Assembly: GCA_905234625.1 (NCBI GenBank)
Contig: CAJOIC010000035.1
Location: 1-32,891, forward strand
DNA length: 32,891 bases
Source: an uncultured Oscillospiraceae bacterium
GTDB taxonomy: Bacteria; Bacillota; Clostridia; Oscillospirales; Oscillospiraceae
Direction of reading: 5' to 3'
Part shown: piece after piece, positions 7,315 to 32,891 of the stretch
How the letters are laid out: the number at the start of each line of letters is the position of its first letter
How positions within the stretch are numbered: the stretch's first letter is position 1
Made by a program: the position numbers and the translations under genes
The notes under the pieces: generated by a model
Database searches by the model: none
The model's input: the letters and a program-made list of their open reading frames with translations, nothing else
Told to the model about the DNA's origin: nothing

Positions 7315-8502
7315 TTACATAATCTTTTCCAGCCGTTCCCTGACGGCGGCGATGAAGGTCTCGGTGTCCACGCCCTCCTTCACGCCGGTGAGGGCGGCCA
7401 TGTCCCCGGTGACGATCCCGTCCGCGATGGCGGCCAGGCTGGCTTGCTCGATCCTGTCACCGAAGGCGGCAAGGGCGGCGTTCCCGTCCAGCTCGCCCCG
7501 CTTTTTCAGGGCGCCGGACCAGGCGAAGATGGTGGCCATGGGGTTCGTCGACGTCTTCTCCCCCTTCTGGCGGCGGTACCAATGCCGGGTGACGGTGCCG
7601 TGGGCGGCCTCGTACTCGAAGCAGCCGGAGGGTGAGATGAGCACGCTGGTCATCAGCGCCAGAGCGCCGAAGGCCGCGCCGATCATATCGCTCATCACGT
7701 CGCCGTCGTAGTTTTTCAGCGCCCAGACGAAGCCGCCCTCGGAGCGCATGCACCGGGCCACGGCGTCGTCGATGAGGGTGTAGATGTACTTGATGCCCGC
7801 AGCCTCGAACGCCGACTTGTACTCCGCGTCGTACACCTCCTGGAAGATGTCCCGGAAGCGGCCGTCGTACACCGTGGAGATGGTGTCCTTGCAGGAGAAC
7901 CACAGGTCCTGGCCCTTGTCCAGCGCACAGGAAAAGCAGCTCCGGGCAAAGGAATAGATGCTCGCGTCCGTGTTGTACATGGCGAGGGCCACGCCGGGGC
8001 CGCCGAAGGTATAGACGGTCTTGTCCTGTCCGTCGGCGGTAAGATGGGCCTCGCCGGGGTTCTCCACACGGATCTCCACGTCTTTATAGAGGTCCGCGTT
8101 GGAGTGGCGGGCGATGGTGATGGGCTTTTTCCACCCGGGCACCAGGGGCGTGGTCCCCGGCAGGAGGATGGGCGCGCGGAAGGTGGTGCCGTCCACCGCG
8201 GAGCGGATCTGCCCGTTGGGGCTCTTGTACATCCGGGAGAGGTGATACTCCTCCATGCGCTTGGCGTTCGGCGTGATGGTGGCGCACTTGACGCCCACGC
8301 CCACCCGCTTCAGGGCCTCCGCCGCCTGCATGGTCACGGCGTCGTCGGTCTTCTCGCGGTTTTCCAGGCCCAGGTCGTAGTACTCCGTATTCAGCTCCAC
8401 GAAGGGGGCCAGCAGCTCGTCCTTGATCATCTGCCAGATGACCCGGGTCATCTCGTCTCCGTCCATCTCCACGATGGGGTTTTGCATTTTGATTTTTTCC
8501 AT
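7315..8502 (-). CDS. icd: NADP-dependent isocitrate dehydrogenase
   Basis: Converts isocitrate to 2-oxoglutarate and CO2 with NADPH formation. The protein is 395 aa from the ATG at 8502, chosen over an ATG 15 codons upstream because the family begins with KIKMQNPIVEMDGDEMTR. Diagnostic features are MDGDEMTRVIW, TPNAKRMEEY, SPNGQIRS, the metal-site NYDGDVMSDM, and the coenzyme loop AAHGTVTRHWYRRQKGE. The pattern is that of the dimeric, eukaryote-like type II enzyme. It lies 78 bp after aconitase on the same strand, and citrate synthase is divergent, so the three consecutive steps from acetyl-CoA plus oxaloacetate to 2-oxoglutarate are clustered, most likely for glutamate synthesis. The gene ends in Lys-Ile-Met-stop in the same base context as hsp20. 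Confidence 0.96.
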   Translation of the reverse strand: MEKIKMQNPIVEMDGDEMTRVIWQMIKDELLAPFVELNTEYYDLGLENREKTDDAVTMQAAEALKRVGVGVKCATITPNAKRMEEYHLSRMYKSPNGQIRSAVDGTTFRAPILLPGTTPLVPGWKKPITIARHSNADLYKDVEIRVENPGEAHLTADGQDKTVYTFGGPGVALAMYNTDASIYSFARSCFSCALDKGQDLWFSCKDTISTVYDGRFRDIFQEVYDAEYKSAFEAAGIKYIYTLIDDAVARCMRSEGGFVWALKNYDGDVMSDMIGAAFGALALMTSVLISPSGCFEYEAAHGTVTRHWYRRQKGEKTSTNPMATIFAWSGALKKRGELDGNAALAAFGDRIEQASLAAIADGIVTGDMAALTGVKEGVDTETFIAAVRERLEKIM

Positions 8503-8580
8503 GATGATTTGATCCTCAATGAAATGATGGCTGTGATTACCGGGCACGCAGCCTTGGAAATCCGGGTTTTTCGTGCGAAT

Positions 8581-10590
8581 TCAAAAATCCGCTTTCTGTC
8601 TGTACCAGTTGATGAGGCAGCCCGCCAGGAGGATCTCCCGCTCCTTGTCGGAGAGCTTGCCGAGGCCCAGGGTCAGGGTAGTATCGCCGATATAGCCCGT
8701 GACCTCCTCCGCGCCGGAGGCGATGGCCGCCCGGATGCCGGGGACCCGCAGGACCGCGCCGTCCTCCCACGTGAACTCCCCGTCCCAGGTAAAGGGCAGG
8801 ATACCCCAGTTGATGAGGTTCGAGCGATAGCGCTTCGTGGCATACTCCACCGCGAGGTTCGCGCCGCCCCCCAGCACTCGCTGGCAGGACGCCGCCTGCT
8901 CCCGGGCGGAGCCGTCTCCGGGCTTTACGGCGTACACGGCGCTGGCCTTGCCCTCGGCCATCAGCGCCTTGCACCGGCCCACGTACTCCGGAACCCGGCG
9001 GGACAGGGCAAACTCCGCGAGCTTCATGGGGTTGGAGCGGTAGCTGGAGGTCTCTCCGGAGGGGATCAGCTCGTCCGTGGTGGTGACGGGGTCATGGATG
9101 ACGGCGGTGAAGGTCACCTCCAGGTCCTCCGGCATGGCGGGGATCTCCGGCCAGGGCTGGATGTTGGGACCGTACCGCAGCTCCTCGTCTGCGATGGGCT
9201 TTCCGAAGCCCTTGTACACCCGCTTTTCATAGGGCGCGGGATCGTAGTCATCGAAGTATTCCGGCATGTCATAGTCGATGGCCGTGGCCGGGGTGATGAC
9301 GCCGCCGTTCCGCGCCGTGGCGGCGATGGACCGCGCGTCCATGAGGACGACCTCGGCGGACTGGCCGTCGGAGGGCTTGGAGCCCTCCCGGTTGGGGAAG
9401 TTCCGGGTGGAGTGCCGCAGGGAGACGGAGTCGTTCGCCGGAACGTCCCCCGCGCCGAAGCAGGGCCCGCAGAAGCAGGGCTTCATCACCGCGCCGGCCT
9501 CCATGAGGGTCTGCACCGCGCCGGATTTCATGGCGGCAAGATTCACCGGCATACTGGAGGGATACACGGACAGCTCGAAGTAGCCGCTGCCCACGCTGTG
9601 TCCCTTCATGATGGCGGCGGCCTCCAGGATATTCTGCAGGGTGCCGCCCGCGCAGCCCGCGATGACGCCCTGCCCCGCCGTCTTCCCCGCCAGGGACGCC
9701 ACCGGCACCGCCTTGGACGGATGATAGGGCAGCGCCGCCATGGGTACCAGCCGGTCAAGATCGATTGTCACCATGCCGTCGTACAGGGCGCCGTCCGCCG
9801 GCTCCAGGCGCTTATAGTCGCCGATCCTGCCGCGCAGGGCCAGCCACGCCTCGGTCTTCTCGTCCGTCTGCCACAGGCTCGACAGGCAGGCGGTCTCCGT
9901 CGTCATGACATCGACGCCCATGCGCCAGTCCATGCTGAGGCTTCTCACGCCGGGTCCGGCAAACTCCAGCACCGCGTTCTTCACAAAGCCCGAGTCGAAC
10001 ACCGCGCCGCACAGGGCAATGGCGGCGTCGTGAGGGCCCACGCCGGGCCGGGGCGTCCCGGTGAGATACACCAGGATCGTCCGGGGCGCGGGCAGCTCAT
10101 AGGTGTCCCCCAGAAGCTGCTTCACGATCTCGGGACCGCCCTCGCCGAAGCCCATGGTGCCGAAGGCGCCGTAGCGGGTGTGGCTGTCCGAGCCGATGAT
10201 CATCTTGCCGCAGCCGGCCAGGACCTCCCGGGCGTACTGGTGGATGACCGCCAGATTCGCCGGGACGTACTCGCCGCCGAATCTCCGGGCGGCGGACAGG
10301 CCGAAGACGTGGTCGTCGGCGTTGATGGTGCCTCCCACGGCGCAGAGGCTGTTGTGGCAGTTCGTGAGCACATAGGGCACAGGGAACCGCTTCAGGCCCG
10401 AGGCCATGGCCGTCTGGATGACGCCGACATATGTTATATCGTGGCTGATGAGGGCGTCGAAGGTGATCCTCTCCCCGCCGTGGGCCGCAATGACCCCGGC
10501 GGACATGGTCTTCTCCCGGGAGGCCTCCGGCGTGGGCTCCGCCGGGGCGCCGCCCTGCCACATCACTTTTTTATCGGTTACAGTAATCAT
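8581..10590 (-). CDS. acn: Aconitate hydratase
   Basis: Interconverts citrate and isocitrate through a [4Fe-4S] cluster. The protein is 669 aa from the ATG at 10590, which has AGAGGGAG 9 bases upstream; a further 74 codons are open upstream but cross the promoter. Landmarks are HDITYVGVIQTA, IGSDSHTRYGAFGTMGFGEGG, the cluster-ligand region CAGGTLQN, CFCGPCFGAGD with the C-x-x-C pair, and a C-terminal swivel domain with PGDGSAREQAA and YRSNLINWG. The length fits the short aconitase / homoaconitase-like subfamily common in Clostridia rather than the 890-aa AcnA. It is the first gene of the leftward operon with icd. Context favours true aconitase over homoaconitase. Confidence 0.93.
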   Translation of the reverse strand: MITVTDKKVMWQGGAPAEPTPEASREKTMSAGVIAAHGGERITFDALISHDITYVGVIQTAMASGLKRFPVPYVLTNCHNSLCAVGGTINADDHVFGLSAARRFGGEYVPANLAVIHQYAREVLAGCGKMIIGSDSHTRYGAFGTMGFGEGGPEIVKQLLGDTYELPAPRTILVYLTGTPRPGVGPHDAAIALCGAVFDSGFVKNAVLEFAGPGVRSLSMDWRMGVDVMTTETACLSSLWQTDEKTEAWLALRGRIGDYKRLEPADGALYDGMVTIDLDRLVPMAALPYHPSKAVPVASLAGKTAGQGVIAGCAGGTLQNILEAAAIMKGHSVGSGYFELSVYPSSMPVNLAAMKSGAVQTLMEAGAVMKPCFCGPCFGAGDVPANDSVSLRHSTRNFPNREGSKPSDGQSAEVVLMDARSIAATARNGGVITPATAIDYDMPEYFDDYDPAPYEKRVYKGFGKPIADEELRYGPNIQPWPEIPAMPEDLEVTFTAVIHDPVTTTDELIPSGETSSYRSNPMKLAEFALSRRVPEYVGRCKALMAEGKASAVYAVKPGDGSAREQAASCQRVLGGGANLAVEYATKRYRSNLINWGILPFTWDGEFTWEDGAVLRVPGIRAAIASGAEEVTGYIGDTTLTLGLGKLSDKEREILLAGCLINWYRQKADF

Positions 10591-10620
10591 GATTCCATAC
10601 TCCCTCTTATGATACCTTTG

Positions 10621-10649
10621 ATTATACAACCGATCCCCGCTCCCGTAAA
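10621..10649 (-). promoter_or_regulatory. Promoter of the acn-icd operon
   Basis: On the minus strand TTTACG (10644-10649), 17 bp, TATAAT (10621-10626), with the start codon 31 bp downstream of the -10 box. Confidence 0.72.
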
Positions 10650-10699
10650 CTCTTTTTTCTGACAAAGTGCTAAAGTTATTTGATGCGATCATTGTGCAT

Positions 10700-10782
10700 A
10701 ACTTGCAAAAATGAATCCATTCATCAGACCAGTTCGGCAAATGCGCACGAATTTTGAATTTTTTATAACAAGAACTTGCAAA
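10700..10782. repeat. Paired 10-bp direct repeat in the acn / citrate synthase promoter region
   Basis: AACTTGCAAA occurs at 10700-10709 and again at 10773-10782, start to start 73 bp, about seven helical turns. The second copy overlaps the -35 box of the citrate synthase promoter. Immediately after the first copy is a perfect palindrome ATGAATCCATTCAT (10711-10724). The arrangement is what one expects of operators for a looping regulator of the divergent genes. That is inference; the sites match no consensus I can name. Confidence 0.45.
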
Positions 10783-10803
10783 TCCAGAAAATAGGGTTAT
10801 AAT
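10776..10803 (+). promoter_or_regulatory. Promoter of citrate synthase
   Basis: TTGCAA (10776-10781), 16 bp, TATAAT (10798-10803); start codon 33 bp beyond the -10 box. Its -35 box lies within one of the two AACTTGCAAA repeats. Confidence 0.75.
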
Positions 10804-10836
10804 AAGAGGCAACTGACGTAAAAGAGGTATCCCATC

Positions 10837-12198
10837 ATGTCCGAGGAAAAATACATCATCGACAAATACATGCCCGCTCTATGCGCCGACGCGGCGGAGC
10901 GGTACGCCATCCCCGCCTCCGTGTTCACCTCCGCGGTGCACCGCGGTCTCAGAAACGAGGACGGCACCGGCGTCCTCGTAGGCGCCACCCGCATCGGCAG
11001 CGTCCGCGGCTACTACATGGAGGACGGCGAGCGCGTCCCCATGAACGGACAGCTCCTGTACCGGGGCATCAAGGTGAGCGATCTCGTGGAGAACCACTGG
11101 CAGACCGGCACCTTCGGCTATGAGGAGGTGGCCTATCTCCTGCTGCTGGGCAAGCTCCCCAACCGCCGGGAGATGGAGCTCTTCCGCGCCATGATGGCGG
11201 AGGCGCGGCCGCTGCCCGCGGGCTTTTTCGACGATATGATCCTGAAAAATCCCAGTCCCAACGTCATGAACGGTCTGGCCCGCTCGATCCTCGCGCTGTA
11301 CACCTATGACGACGACCCGGACGACCGTTCCGTGGAGAATCTCATGGCCCAGTCCATCAGCCTCATCGCCCGCCTGCCGGTCATCGTGGCCCAGACCTAC
11401 CAGGTCAAGCGCCATGTGTACGACGGCAAGAGCCTCTACATCCACCGGCCCAAGGACGAGCTCTCCCTGGCGGAGAACTTCCTGCGGCTCATCCGCAAGG
11501 ACAAGAAATATACCGACGCGGAGGCGAAGCTCCTGGATCTGATGCTCATCCTCCACGCGGAGCACGGCGCGGGCAACAACTCCGCCTTCACCTGCCGCGC
11601 CATGTCCTCCTCCGGAACGGACACCTATTCCGCCATCGCGGGAGCGGTGGGCTCCCTGAAGGGCCCCCTCCACGGCGGCGCCAACGCCAAGGTCATGGAG
11701 ATGTTCCGGTATCTGGACGAGGTCATCGCAAACAAAGAAAACGACGACGAGGTCCGGGACGTTCTCGTAAAGCTCCTCGCCGGCGAGGGCGGAGACGGCT
11801 CCGGCAAGATCTACGGTCTGGGCCACGCTGTGTACACCATGTCCGACCCCCGCGCCGTGGCCATCAAAAAGCACGCCCGCTCCATGGCGGAGAGCACCGG
11901 GCGGCTCAAGGAGTTCGAGTTCATGGAGAGAGTGGAGCGCATCGGCCTCGAGCTTCTCATGGAGCGGCGGAAGGACGGCTTCCCCATGTGCGCGAACGTG
12001 GACTTCTACTCCGGCTTCGTTTACAGCATGCTGAACATCCCCGAGGAGCTGTTCACCCCCCTGTTTGCCACCGCCCGTATCGCCGGCTGGTGCGCACATC
12101 GCATGGAGGAAGCCCTCACCGGAGGCCGCATCATGCGTCCCGCCTACCGCGCCGTCATGGAAAAACGCGGCTATGTCCCTATCGACGAGAGAGAATAA
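10837..12198 (+). CDS. gltA: Citrate synthase
   Basis: Condenses acetyl-CoA with oxaloacetate to citrate. The protein is 453 aa, the length of the clostridial citrate/2-methylcitrate synthase family with an N-terminal extension. Motifs are LLYRGIKVSDLVE, GYEEVAYLLLLGKLPN, LHAEHGAGNNSAFTCR (catalytic His region), GPLHGGANAKVMEM and GLGHAVYTMSDPRA (second catalytic His), with MERVERIG further on. The ATG at 10837 follows AAGAGG. It is transcribed divergently from acn-icd. A terminator follows at 12212-12238. The context favours citrate over methylcitrate synthesis, since no prp genes are present. Confidence 0.94.
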   Translation: MSEEKYIIDKYMPALCADAAERYAIPASVFTSAVHRGLRNEDGTGVLVGATRIGSVRGYYMEDGERVPMNGQLLYRGIKVSDLVENHWQTGTFGYEEVAYLLLLGKLPNRREMELFRAMMAEARPLPAGFFDDMILKNPSPNVMNGLARSILALYTYDDDPDDRSVENLMAQSISLIARLPVIVAQTYQVKRHVYDGKSLYIHRPKDELSLAENFLRLIRKDKKYTDAEAKLLDLMLILHAEHGAGNNSAFTCRAMSSSGTDTYSAIAGAVGSLKGPLHGGANAKVMEMFRYLDEVIANKENDDEVRDVLVKLLAGEGGDGSGKIYGLGHAVYTMSDPRAVAIKKHARSMAESTGRLKEFEFMERVERIGLELLMERRKDGFPMCANVDFYSGFVYSMLNIPEELFTPLFATARIAGWCAHRMEEALTGGRIMRPAYRAVMEKRGYVPIDERE

Positions 12199-31261: not shown

Positions 31262-32221
31262 TTACTGTGCGGCGTACCAGGCGTTCAGATCAATGCCGTT
31301 CGCAGCATACTCCTCTGCGGTGGGGCCGAAGCTCGGATCGTCAAAGCTCCAGGTCTCATAAGGCACGGGGATGGGGATGACCTCCATCTCGCTGCGCAGG
31401 CGATCCACAGAATACTGTGTATACTGCGGGCTGGAGAGATAATCGTAGCGCGTGAAGGTGTCGATCTCGGCAATGTCCTTCTGATCGCTGGTGGTGATCG
31501 TGGTGGTCTCGGGCTTTGCGGCCGCGGTCCCGCCGGTGCTTCCACTCGGCTCACCGGAGCCGCCGGAGCTGCCCAGCTCTACAAAGAAGCCGCCGCCGAA
31601 GTCGGTGTACATATGCAGATGCCAGAGCTTCCAGCCGCCTTCCTCCTTCACGAAGTCGGCGCCGTAGGCCTCCCACATGGCGCTGGCCCCGCCGTTGGTC
31701 TCCTTGATCATGCCGGGAGAGTACCAGAAGCCCTTGGCTGTCTTGCCGTCTGCGGCAACCTCGATGATACTGGTGGTGGTGACGTGCAGCAGAAGCTGGC
31801 CCACGCCGCCATAGACCTCCAGGATCTCGTCGTCGGTCCAGTCGGAGATATCGATGCCGTTCTGCTGGCAGTAGCGTTTGGCGCTGGAGAGCCAGGATTC
31901 GTCATGGCCTTCCACATAACCGTCCCAAATAGCGCCAAAGCCGAGCATAAAGCCCTGGTTCTGACCAAAGGAAGCCGTCTCGCGGTTTTCCTTCTCCTGG
32001 ACCCAGATCTCTTCCATCTCGTCCCGGTGCTCGCCGTAGCAGTGGTACATCACATGCCGGCTCATGATGTTCTGGATATCCACCGCATCCTGCGCCCGCC
32101 GGGCCTCAGCCAGCATAGCGTCGATCTCCTCGTCGGTGTAGGCGAAGGCGCCGATACCGAGAGAGGCGATAAGCGCAAATACGCACGCCAGACTGAGAAT
32201 GATCTTCCAGGTTTTTTTCAT
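31262..32221 (-). CDS. Secreted SnoaL/NTF2-like protein with C-terminal extension
   Basis: A 319-aa exported protein. The ATG at 32221 has GGGAGG at 7 bases and starts a signal peptide (MKKTWKIILSLACVFALIA) with cleavage after AFA near residue 27; the frame is open upstream but without a ribosome site. The mature part begins with TDEEIDAMLAEARRAQDAVDIQNIMSRH (in pieces: DAVDIQNIMSRHVMYH), then GKTAKGFWYSPG and GGWKLWHLHMYTDFGGGF, the pattern of the SnoaL/NTF2-like cone fold. A SGEPSGSTGG linker joins a C-terminal region ending in PVPYETWSFDDPSFGPTAEEY (pieces) and NAWYAAQ. SnoaL folds include dehydratases, isomerases and binding proteins; catalysis here is not established. Confidence 0.82.
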   Translation of the reverse strand: MKKTWKIILSLACVFALIASLGIGAFAYTDEEIDAMLAEARRAQDAVDIQNIMSRHVMYHCYGEHRDEMEEIWVQEKENRETASFGQNQGFMLGFGAIWDGYVEGHDESWLSSAKRYCQQNGIDISDWTDDEILEVYGGVGQLLLHVTTTSIIEVAADGKTAKGFWYSPGMIKETNGGASAMWEAYGADFVKEEGGWKLWHLHMYTDFGGGFFVELGSSGGSGEPSGSTGGTAAAKPETTTITTSDQKDIAEIDTFTRYDYLSSPQYTQYSVDRLRSEMEVIPIPVPYETWSFDDPSFGPTAEEYAANGIDLNAWYAAQ

Positions 32222-32254
32222 GGTCGTTCCTCCCGTTTCATAAAATGTGTTTAT

Positions 32255-32286
32255 ATTATAACACAGAAGTGTTAATACTGTATTAA
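32255..32286 (-). promoter_or_regulatory. Promoter with two overlapping palindromes upstream of the SnoaL-like gene
   Basis: On the minus strand TATAAT lies at 32255-32260, about 34 bp before the start; no good -35 is seen, suggesting an activated promoter. Over it are two perfect inverted repeats, TAACAC-AGAA-GTGTTA (32259-32274) and TTAATAC-T-GTATTAA (32272-32286), sharing three bases. They would bind dimeric regulators at the -10 and -35 positions. Confidence 0.55.
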
Positions 32287-32291
32287 GAAGA

Positions 32292-32399
32292 TCATATTTT
32301 TGTGAACAGTTTTCTCTGCTGGGCAAACGCCTCCCGGTGCAGCGTTTTCATGACACGGCAGTACTTCGTCCCCGGTGAAAGCTCGCCCCCCTCCCGCAA
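32292..32399 (-). pseudogene. Short open frame, possible gene remnant
   Basis: An open frame of 35 codons from a TTG at 32399 to a TGA at 32292-32294; it includes ELSPGTKYCRVMKTLH and REAFAQQRKLF. The composition looks protein-like, and there is a GGGAGG-like stretch nearby, but there is no upstream ATG and no relative that I recognise. It may be the tail of a decayed gene or chance. Confidence 0.2.
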
Positions 32400-32405
32400 T
32401 CAGCA

Positions 32406-32444
32406 AGGACCCTGTCACATTCCCAAACGAATGGACAGGGTCCT
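32406..32444. other. Stem-loop without T-tract, downstream of the micropeptide genes
   Basis: Perfect 11-bp stem AGGACCCTGTC (32406-32416) with 32434-32444, one bulged base, then an inner 5-bp stem CATTC/GAATG and loop CCAAAC. Neither side has a T-run, so it is not a standard Rho-independent terminator. It begins 43 nt after the second peptide's stop on the minus strand and may be a 3' RNA-stabilising or processing element. Confidence 0.65.
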
Positions 32445-32487
32445 AATTGATATCCTGTATTTTCATTTTCTCTGACTCCATAGCCGA

Positions 32488-32544
32488 TTATTTGTGAGCG
32501 CAGATCTCGAAATACTCTTCCAGGAACTTCTCCAGCTTCCTCAT
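32488..32544 (-). CDS. 18-residue micropeptide, copy 2
   Basis: Encodes MRKLEKFLEEYFEICAHK. The ATG at 32544 has AAAGGAGG 9 bases upstream. It is nearly identical to the peptide encoded at 32589-32645; the two genes differ at seven bases, six at synonymous third positions and one giving Lys to Arg at residue 2. That pattern is strong evidence that the peptide is translated and selected. Hydrophobic residues at 4, 7, 8, 11, 12 and 14-16 would form one face of an amphipathic helix; there is one Cys (15) and no signal peptide. Leaderless amphipathic peptides include cytolysins (phenol-soluble modulins), and short peptides can be signals or RiPP precursors. I recognise no family. Confidence 0.78.
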   Translation of the reverse strand: MRKLEKFLEEYFEICAHK

Positions 32545-32588
32545 GATCGCCTGCCTCCTTTCCGTGCAGATCGTATGGCGTTATCGAT

Positions 32589-32645
32589 TTACTTGTGGGC
32601 GCAGATCTCGAAGTACTCCTCCAGGAACTTTTCGAGCTTCTTCAT
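32589..32645 (-). CDS. 18-residue micropeptide, copy 1
   Basis: Encodes MKKLEKFLEEYFEICAHK. The ATG at 32645 has AAGGAGG 8 bases upstream, and a promoter with extended -10 lies at 32689-32717. It is the promoter-proximal member of a tandem pair; the second copy starts 44 bp after its stop, again with its own ribosome site. Net charge is about zero (four Lys, four Glu, one His), with a sharp amphipathic pattern. The nearby genes on the same strand are a secreted SnoaL-like protein downstream and an unidentified gene upstream. No modification enzyme, peptidase or dedicated transporter is seen within the window, but the right edge is only 250 bp away. Confidence 0.8.
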   Translation of the reverse strand: MKKLEKFLEEYFEICAHK

Positions 32646-32683
32646 GGTTTTCGCCTCCTTCGTGTCCGTCTTTTTTCTTTCTG

Positions 32684-32747
32684 GCTATACTATAGCACGG
32701 AAGCTTAAGATAGTAAAATACTATGATGATTGTGTCATTCATACTAT
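32684..32747 (-). promoter_or_regulatory. Palindrome-rich promoter of the micropeptide genes
   Basis: On the minus strand TTTACT (32712-32717), 17 bp, TATAGT (32689-32694) with extended -10 TGC. The -10 box lies in a perfect palindrome GCTATA-C-TATAGC (32684-32696), and the -35 box in ATAGTA-AAA-TACTAT (32710-32724). The heptamer ATACTAT occurs at 32687, 32718 and 32741 on the plus strand. Repeated sites covering both promoter boxes point to a dedicated regulator. Confidence 0.6.
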
Positions 32748-32762
32748 TTACATATGATAAGA

Positions 32763-32804
32763 CCATCCCCGCTCCGGCAACATCACGCGCAGGAGCGGGG
32801 ACGG
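32763..32804 (-). terminator. Terminator of the gene entering from the right edge
   Basis: 13-bp GC-rich stem (32763-32775 with 32792-32804, one A-C mismatch that becomes G-U on the minus-strand RNA), 16-base loop, followed on the minus strand by TCTTAT. It separates the partial gene from the micropeptide promoter. Confidence 0.75.
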
Positions 32805-32807
32805 TTC

Positions 32808-32891
32808 TCAGTTTTCCTCCAACAGGAGCAGATGCTCTGTCGCCATATCGTAATACAACCGAACGCTGCCGGCGGTATCGGCCACATGGAC
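32808..32891 (-). CDS. 3' end of an unidentified leftward gene (partial)
   Basis: Open frame from the right edge to a TGA at 32808-32810; 27 residues are visible, ending HLLLLEEN. A terminator follows after 3 bases, supporting a real gene end. The fragment is too short to classify. Knowing this gene would help interpret the micropeptides next to it. Confidence 0.6.
   Translation of the reverse strand, partial: VHVADTAGSVRLYYDMATEHLLLLEEN

Follow-up and report, generated by a model that had tools for sequence, protein, structure and literature searches.

Two tiny genes at the right end of the window, the whole analysed stretch of 32,891 nucleotides from an uncultured Oscillospiraceae bacterium, are real and belong to a family of micropeptides of 18-27 residues. 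This family, found in two families of Clostridia, is almost certainly genuine and apparently undescribed. Judging from promoters and neighbouring genes, the micropeptides are very probably controlled by a LysR-type regulator, and their setting would quite likely be that of nitrogen metabolism. In the reading preferred here, which is given a probability of about 0.48, they would be LysR-controlled, nitrogen-linked intracellular micropeptides that tune nitrogen assimilation by docking on a partner protein.

The two ORFs encode 18 residues each and are read leftwards (Table 1). An initial sequence-only reading of this DNA had described them as lying behind AAGGAGG sites and as differing by six silent changes and one Lys/Arg change. 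Codon comparison confirms this description, the seven base differences being six synonymous third-position changes and one second-position change (Lys/Arg). With 8.3 synonymous and 45.7 non-synonymous sites, the silent excess corresponds to a binomial p = 8e-5, and this 6:1 ratio of silent to replacement changes upholds the proposal that the DNA drifted while selection kept the peptide. A chance origin of the pair is rejected on the codon pattern and the homologues.

Table 1. Features of the peptide operon and adjoining sequences at the right end of the window.
Feature	Position	Strand	Remark
Strong hairpin at operon end, probable terminator	32405..32445	(-)	z -3.8 for 32385-32450
Third mini-ORF, MKIQDIN	32443..32466	(-)	Identical in C31; MRIQDIT in G017
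Micropeptide gene 2 (ORF 2)	32488..32544	(-)	MRKLEKFLEEYFEICAHK + stop
Shine-Dalgarno AAGGAGG of gene 2	32554..32560	(-)	9 bases upstream of ORF 2
Micropeptide gene 1 (ORF 1)	32589..32645	(-)	MKKLEKFLEEYFEICAHK + stop
Shine-Dalgarno AAGGAGG of gene 1	32654..32660	(-)	8 bases upstream of ORF 1
-10-like TATAGT	32689..32694	(-)	Promoter alignment
Second dyad ATAGTATTTTACTAT, overlapping the -35 region	32710..32724	(-)	Promoter alignment A5
Upstream operator dyad ATATGTAAATAGTAT of the ATAY-N7-RTAT class, a probable site of LysR recognition	32741..32755	(-)	Alignment A5
Inverted repeat separating gene X from the peptide promoter, probably the X terminator	32766..32800	.	Read from sequence
3' end of gene X	32808..32891	(-)	859-aa PPDK_N-domain protein, complete in contig C61

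In the genome to which the window belongs (G000), the 18-mer matches five places, one of which, on contig C61, is a near-copy of ORF 1. A search with the 18-mer matched 3 of 40 genomes, its own included, and an 18-mer profile matched 3 of 35 genomes of the genus and 2 of 400 of the family, its own being counted in both; the other two carriers in the genus are G017 and G023. The peptide occurs in tandem copies in C31, in G017 (variants MKKLVRFLEEYFEICAHK and MKKLVQLLEDYFAICARK) and in G023, where the second copy is cut by the contig end. From the profile alone, the peptides appeared to be a curiosity of one genus; a promoter search then revealed diverged members. The model R1, made of five promoters, had a weak match (E 0.017) in G005; the ORF behind this site encodes MKNIFKTVEDFLERYFACFSITF and diverges from a LysR gene. 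This 23-mer is matched in eight genomes out of 300 of the family: three belong to the window's own genus (96-100% identity) and five to a second genus (50-68%). In one genome of the second genus, MKKILTAVEEFLELYFASFAVTAVR is encoded three times in a row, with the contig ending inside the third copy. A DNA pattern drawn from both peptide types, used in one scan of the genome collection, matched 32 loci distributed over Oscillospiraceae, Clostridiales and Lachnospiraceae. These loci give 37 ORF rows, of which 34 are members of 18-27 residues or contig-cut or N-masked copies; the others are L074, L077 and L084, the last of which runs off its contig and resembles the start of a longer protein. Mixed-pair operons are found in Lachnospiraceae (L064, L070 twice, L083 and L118), for instance MLKKLEMFLEDYYKECAHK with MKNVWQKIEEFLEEYYDRRA. 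One named strain, Fusibacillus kribbianus YH-rum2234, is among the carriers.

Comparison with libraries is consistent with a new family. The window has nothing in Rfam at gathering scores, and the best hit of a profile search of solved structures has an E value of 0.91. No match at or above cut-off was obtained with Pfam (five members) or with NCBIfam and PHROGs (the 17 of the 24 members of alignment A6 that were long enough, the 18- and 19-mers, including the two of the window, falling outside the scan). The best sub-threshold matches are NCBIfam SP_0009 (E 0.014, 15.3 of the 33 bits needed) and a PHROG (E 0.014). In viral contigs, 31 stretches fit a search pattern, none of them a confirmed relative, and phages and plasmids gave no DNA match; a viral origin was rejected on these grounds. 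In the open-licence literature, neither a pairing of LysR with a micropeptide nor a match to the peptide string was found; an earlier report outside that literature is possible, for example in supplementary lists of predicted small proteins. The earlier proposal of a real, selected and new tandem peptide family is thus sustained by these searches at library cut-offs and by relatives in other genera and in a second family, well apart from the pair in which it was first seen; the condition set for its refutation, an absence of homologues outside the pair, did not materialise.

The members share a core, (L/I/F)-x-x-Y-(Y/F)-x-x-(F/C), carried on an amphipathic helix. Counts over the 34 listed members, which match the core by construction and lean towards type A because nine are close type A relatives, give as commonest residues F 24, L 27, E 27, E 20 and Y 29, with Y 21 or F 13 at the next position. 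Two variable positions come after these, followed by F 17 or C 11 (the Cys15 column, completed by Y 4 and two others), A 20 and H 15. The 24 members of the MAFFT alignment A6 align with no internal gaps. In 32 of the 34, the best stretch of 18 residues has a hydrophobic moment no lower than the 95% mark of 500 shuffles, the choice of the best stretch favouring longer members; C31a (p 0.062) and L141 (p 0.092) fall short of it.

At the level of codons, purifying selection on the family is apparent. Ratios of silent to replacement changes of 6:1, 8:3, 6:3 and 12:3 are found in four pairs, picked from 36 computed and reaching up to family distance; in other pairs, mostly involving C31b or G017b, second copies that have diverged, replacements outnumber silent changes. 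Second copies evolve faster: replacements make up most of the differences between C31b or G017b and the respective first copy (silent to replacement 3:12 for C31a-C31b and 5:8 within G017). At 0.2-0.3 replacements per site, they still remain below the silent-site rate (8.3 silent and 45.7 replacement sites).

In alignment A5, 15 promoter regions align with few gaps and display ATAY-N7-RTAT, then TATTTTAC or TATTTCAC, then a -10 element. A layout with two sites is usual for operators of LysR regulators. Among the 30 pattern arrays, this predicted two-part operator is present upstream of all 26 that have at least 330 bp of upstream sequence, nine of which were used in A5 or are second records of genomes used. 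The gap between the ATAY-N7-RTAT dyad and TATTTTAC is 20 bases in 25 arrays and 19 in one (L075). The other four arrays are cut by contig ends and retain 78-154 bp of upstream sequence; the TATTTTAC part is visible in two of them and neither part in the other two.

The 15 sites of A5, all at peptide loci, were made into an operator model, R2, which finds these genes independently of the peptide sequence. Its match in the window (32676-32759, E 4.3e-17) is to a site that forms part of the model. R2 was searched in 35 genus genomes, 9 pattern-locus genomes, 299 Lachnospiraceae genomes and 391 genomes of the class, and yielded 25 micropeptide sites outside the training set, L140 being counted by reading and core match. 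Eight of them are closely related to sites in the training set (G042, G016, G041, G004, G040, the second L070 site, L118 and L057); among the remaining 17, L121 and L128 encode the same peptide. The Lachnospiraceae genomes gave 23 sites outside G442 at E <= 1e-4, 14 of them with a core-matching ORF. The 11 best new sites (E 1.0e-7 or lower) all encode a micropeptide, and the nine with none have E values of 1.5e-7 or higher, other weak matches being likewise devoid of one. At class level, 6 of the 391 genomes, G000 being one, matched at E <= 1e-5; the other five have six new sites between them, none with an accepted micropeptide; in L155, one out-of-context short ORF matches the core. As a background, 126 distinct other SD-bearing ORFs of 14-32 aa were collected from the fetched DNA. 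Four match the core, and all four are family members whose operator lies outside the stretch or was missed by the filter, so that the background entered the test as 0 of 122. L069 has no R2 match at E <= 0.02 in its genome, yet both operator parts are present. Weak R2 sites also stand upstream of genes that by eye are aconitase-like (L143, L152 and L104), perhaps belonging to a related LysR circuit. Weak matches at aconitase-like, acyl-CoA-dehydrogenase-like and other genes, all recognised by eye, were not accepted as regulon.

The operator accompanies one group of LysR proteins. For 11 of the 14 Lachnospiraceae micropeptides from the R2 search, a LysR gene lies within 600 bp, divergent in ten cases and upstream on the same strand in one. 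A maximum-likelihood tree was calculated for 37 LysR proteins, 19 adjoining a micropeptide and 18 not, the partial row L067 having been dropped. It contains an 18-row clade (support 100/98) whose every member adjoins a micropeptide. A second group (99/97) unites L075, beside a type A peptide, both LysRs of G000, that of G017 and L146 beside pyrG; branches are long among the outer rows, so that the deeper order is unsure. Within the genus, the operator is detected at E <= 1e-8 in nine genomes, each of which also has the peptide. A LysR at E <= 1e-60 is found in eight of these nine versus 3 of the 26 others (p = 5.7e-5, from the genus-wide table rather than the clade-restricted one, where G001 was counted outside though absent from the tree). 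A counterpoint to the preferred reading is that no LysR is adjacent to the peptides of the window, C31, G017 or G023; G023, which is 85% complete, has none at this threshold. The LysR relatives of G003, G001 and G043 show no SD-bearing short ORF in their divergent 600 bp; in the tree, from which that of G001 was left out, the proteins of G003 and G043 do not belong to the peptide LysR groups. The G000 LysR on C31 is 65% identical to the LysR divergent from the type A peptide of L075. A second G000 LysR, on C43 (L114, L171), is 79% identical to it and has at its 3' end a weak operator-like site (E 0.007) and a hairpin. Four of the LysRs score 132.9, 135.3, 136.7 and 142.9 bits against the NCBIfam GltC model NF053705, below its cut-off of 350.

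The nitrogen setting is suggested by the genes found around the operator and the peptides. The G000 LysR that is 65% identical to that of L075 lies between pyrG and a run of asnB, amt/PII, glutamine synthetase III (with Pfam GSIII_N) and glutamine synthetase. R2 sites separate a LysR gene from gltB in three genomes belonging to one genus (g183) and a LysR from pyrG in a single genome; they also stand upstream of amt in two genomes, one of these matches being weak (E 0.016). On C31 and C56, the operator directly follows asnB and heads a small structured transcript with no evident gene. These transcripts (L046 1501-1554, G000:C31:22691-22744; L045 1501-1548, G000:C56:18585-18632) show by eye GCAGAGA...TCTCTGC, then AACCTGCC...GGCAGGTT, with no SD-ORF, and may be regarded as a candidate nitrogen-linked small RNA. 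The micropeptides themselves adjoin gltBD-X (C35/C61 and C31), guaA-X (G023), LysR-asnB (L121, asnB partial) and an ANTAR regulator with glnA (L128, glnA partial). Against the preferred reading, the flanks read at most micropeptide loci (type B, type C and most Lachnospiraceae) contain no nitrogen gene, and the link to nitrogen therefore rests on the shared operator and the loci just named.

Around the window's operon, several further observations may be added. Gene X follows gltB-gltD in contigs C61 and C31 of G000, the gltB of C61 having been identified both from its own sequence and from scanned relatives. X stands between gltD or guaA and the micropeptides, and the N-terminal third of its product (L008 216-2795, (-)) has no Pfam family match. 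C61 is probably a strain variant overlapping the window, because its start is 92% identical to the window end over 300 bases. C31 carries a second, diverged gltB-gltD-X-peptides unit, 84% identical to C61 over 8 kb, which would stem either from duplication or from a closely related organism binned together with G000. In L057, from a Lachnospiraceae MAG, an unrelated 11-codon ORF occupies the place of the third mini-ORF, and positions 255-300 resemble the window's type A terminator hairpin so closely by eye as to be near-identical to it. This likeness hints that a whole type A unit may have been transferred between families. Elsewhere in the window (7315-12198), genes for isocitrate dehydrogenase, aconitase and citrate synthase are grouped according to Pfam, forming the 2-oxoglutarate branch that feeds glutamate synthesis.

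Considering these properties, the following mechanism may be envisaged. We infer that the LysR protein binds the operator, responds to nitrogen status and, in plenty or in want, switches on the micropeptide promoter within a regulon that would include glutamine and glutamate assimilation. The micropeptide, a leaderless amphipathic helix, would probably stay inside the cell, and its aromatic face (F7, L8, Y11, F12 and C/F15) would dock on a nitrogen-assimilation protein, so that nitrogen assimilation would be tuned after translation. The most likely partner would be glutamine synthetase, glutamate synthase or Amt/PII, much as reported for sP26. For the peptide as an enzyme-binding effector, the chance is put slightly short of even. 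The micropeptides are more likely to be miniature regulators of nitrogen metabolism than secreted peptides, because their promoter type is common to nitrogen-assimilation genes. A wider and more doubtful idea would be that, in a whole branch of nitrogen control in gut Clostridia, the main conserved output of the LysR is an effector of about 20 residues, amplified in tandem, which acts directly on nitrogen-assimilation enzymes. It would have replaced a more direct arrangement, found in a different lineage of the class, where LysR itself controls gltB and amt. The genes are below the usual limits of gene calling, and in gut and rumen Clostridia this would hide from view a conserved output of a regulator. 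Regulator, operator, peptide core and pathway are predicted jointly, the nitrogen link provides a testable function, and the question of how tiny proteins tune nitrogen metabolism would become testable in Bacillota.

Among the alternatives, the one that survives best, although it is unlikely, is that the peptide targets its own LysR and dampens or tunes it by feedback or as an anti-activator. LysR is the commonest neighbour and usually divergent, and in the Lachnospiraceae search most genomes matched by R2 have a single operator site. Feedback fits the frequent LysR-peptide pairing almost as well as a nitrogen-protein target does. However, in the window, C31, G017 and the G446/G448 pairs no LysR lies within 600 bp of the peptide operon, and tandem copies point to a requirement for dosage instead of one-to-one control. 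A target other than LysR is favoured, because some peptide operons lack an adjacent LysR and because copies are multiple.

The sequence-only reading had proposed a secreted or membrane-active peptide, and had named Cys15 as a possible modification or dimer site. A peptide of this kind, resembling phenol-soluble modulins, or a pheromone, would account for leaderless genes in tandem and for a helix whose amphipathicity stands out in 32 of the 34 members (with the advantage that longer members draw from the choice of stretch). It is nevertheless decidedly improbable: net charge runs from -3 to +4 and is exactly 0 in 9 of the 34, an acidic E-E/D adjoins the core, and the operator is nitrogen-linked. 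In the neighbour lists, read by eye over flanks of up to 4 kb, what recurs is LysR, the operator and, at some loci, nitrogen genes, with no recurring exporter, peptidase, receptor or maturation gene, three MATE transporters being seen. That part of the proposal finds no support here.

That the true product is an RNA, either a small regulatory RNA or an attenuator, the ORFs being by-products, is less probable still. The strong terminal hairpin, the same-strand ORF located beyond it in the window (31262-32326) and the apparently non-coding structured transcript headed by the operator after asnB would agree with an RNA. Against it, drift is silent and at third positions while SD and start are kept, the peptide core aligns gap-free across two families, and at C31, where the next ORF past the peptide operon is convergent, nothing downstream could be attenuated. 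Finally, a RiPP precursor or peptide modified at Cys15 deserves hardly any weight: type A peptides do have Cys and His near the C-terminus, but Cys is present in just 11 of the 34 members, so that Cys15 is no hallmark of the family, and no maturation enzyme was recognised by eye in the neighbour lists read.

It remains to compare these micropeptides, acting as nitrogen-linked regulators in the preferred reading, with known systems. Phenol-soluble modulins are leaderless amphipathic helical peptides encoded in tandem operons and controlled by an agr-type quorum system. The present peptides resemble them as leaderless amphipathic helices of 18-27 aa. They differ in having a LysR-type operator and a LysR partner instead of agr-type control, and in the neighbour lists read by eye no export system is seen beside their loci; membership was rejected on regulation. 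With GltC, the LysR activator of glutamate synthase, the likeness lies in the R2 site between the LysR gene and gltB in the three g183 genomes, and the difference in the scores of the LysRs, at most 130-143 bits against two NCBIfam GltC models with cut-offs of 350 and 300.

The cyanobacterial glutamine-synthetase inactivating factors and PirA are longer proteins. They have other regulators, are compared here by description only, and are presented as small proteins acting on nitrogen-metabolism proteins (PMC9249791, PMC6316151, PMC8092223). In Bacillota, the C-terminal tails of GlnR and TnrA bind feedback-inhibited glutamine synthetase and have the consensus XG(E/D)XSRF (PMC9249791); as described there, they are likewise peptide segments of about 20 residues acting on glutamine synthetase. 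This motif is absent from all 24 rows of A6, and mimicry of the GlnR tail was discarded for that reason.

We know of no LysR operator or tandem array for sP26 of Methanosarcina mazei, an archaeal peptide that is likened to the micropeptides by its description rather than by sequence. This 23-residue peptide is reported to bind glutamine synthetase (PMC9249791, PMC11957540), although cryo-EM is reported not to have shown it bound (PMC11957540). With the micropeptides sP26 shares its size class, its encoding by an ORF and the nitrogen setting that is predicted for them, and it is the nearest to them in size and setting.
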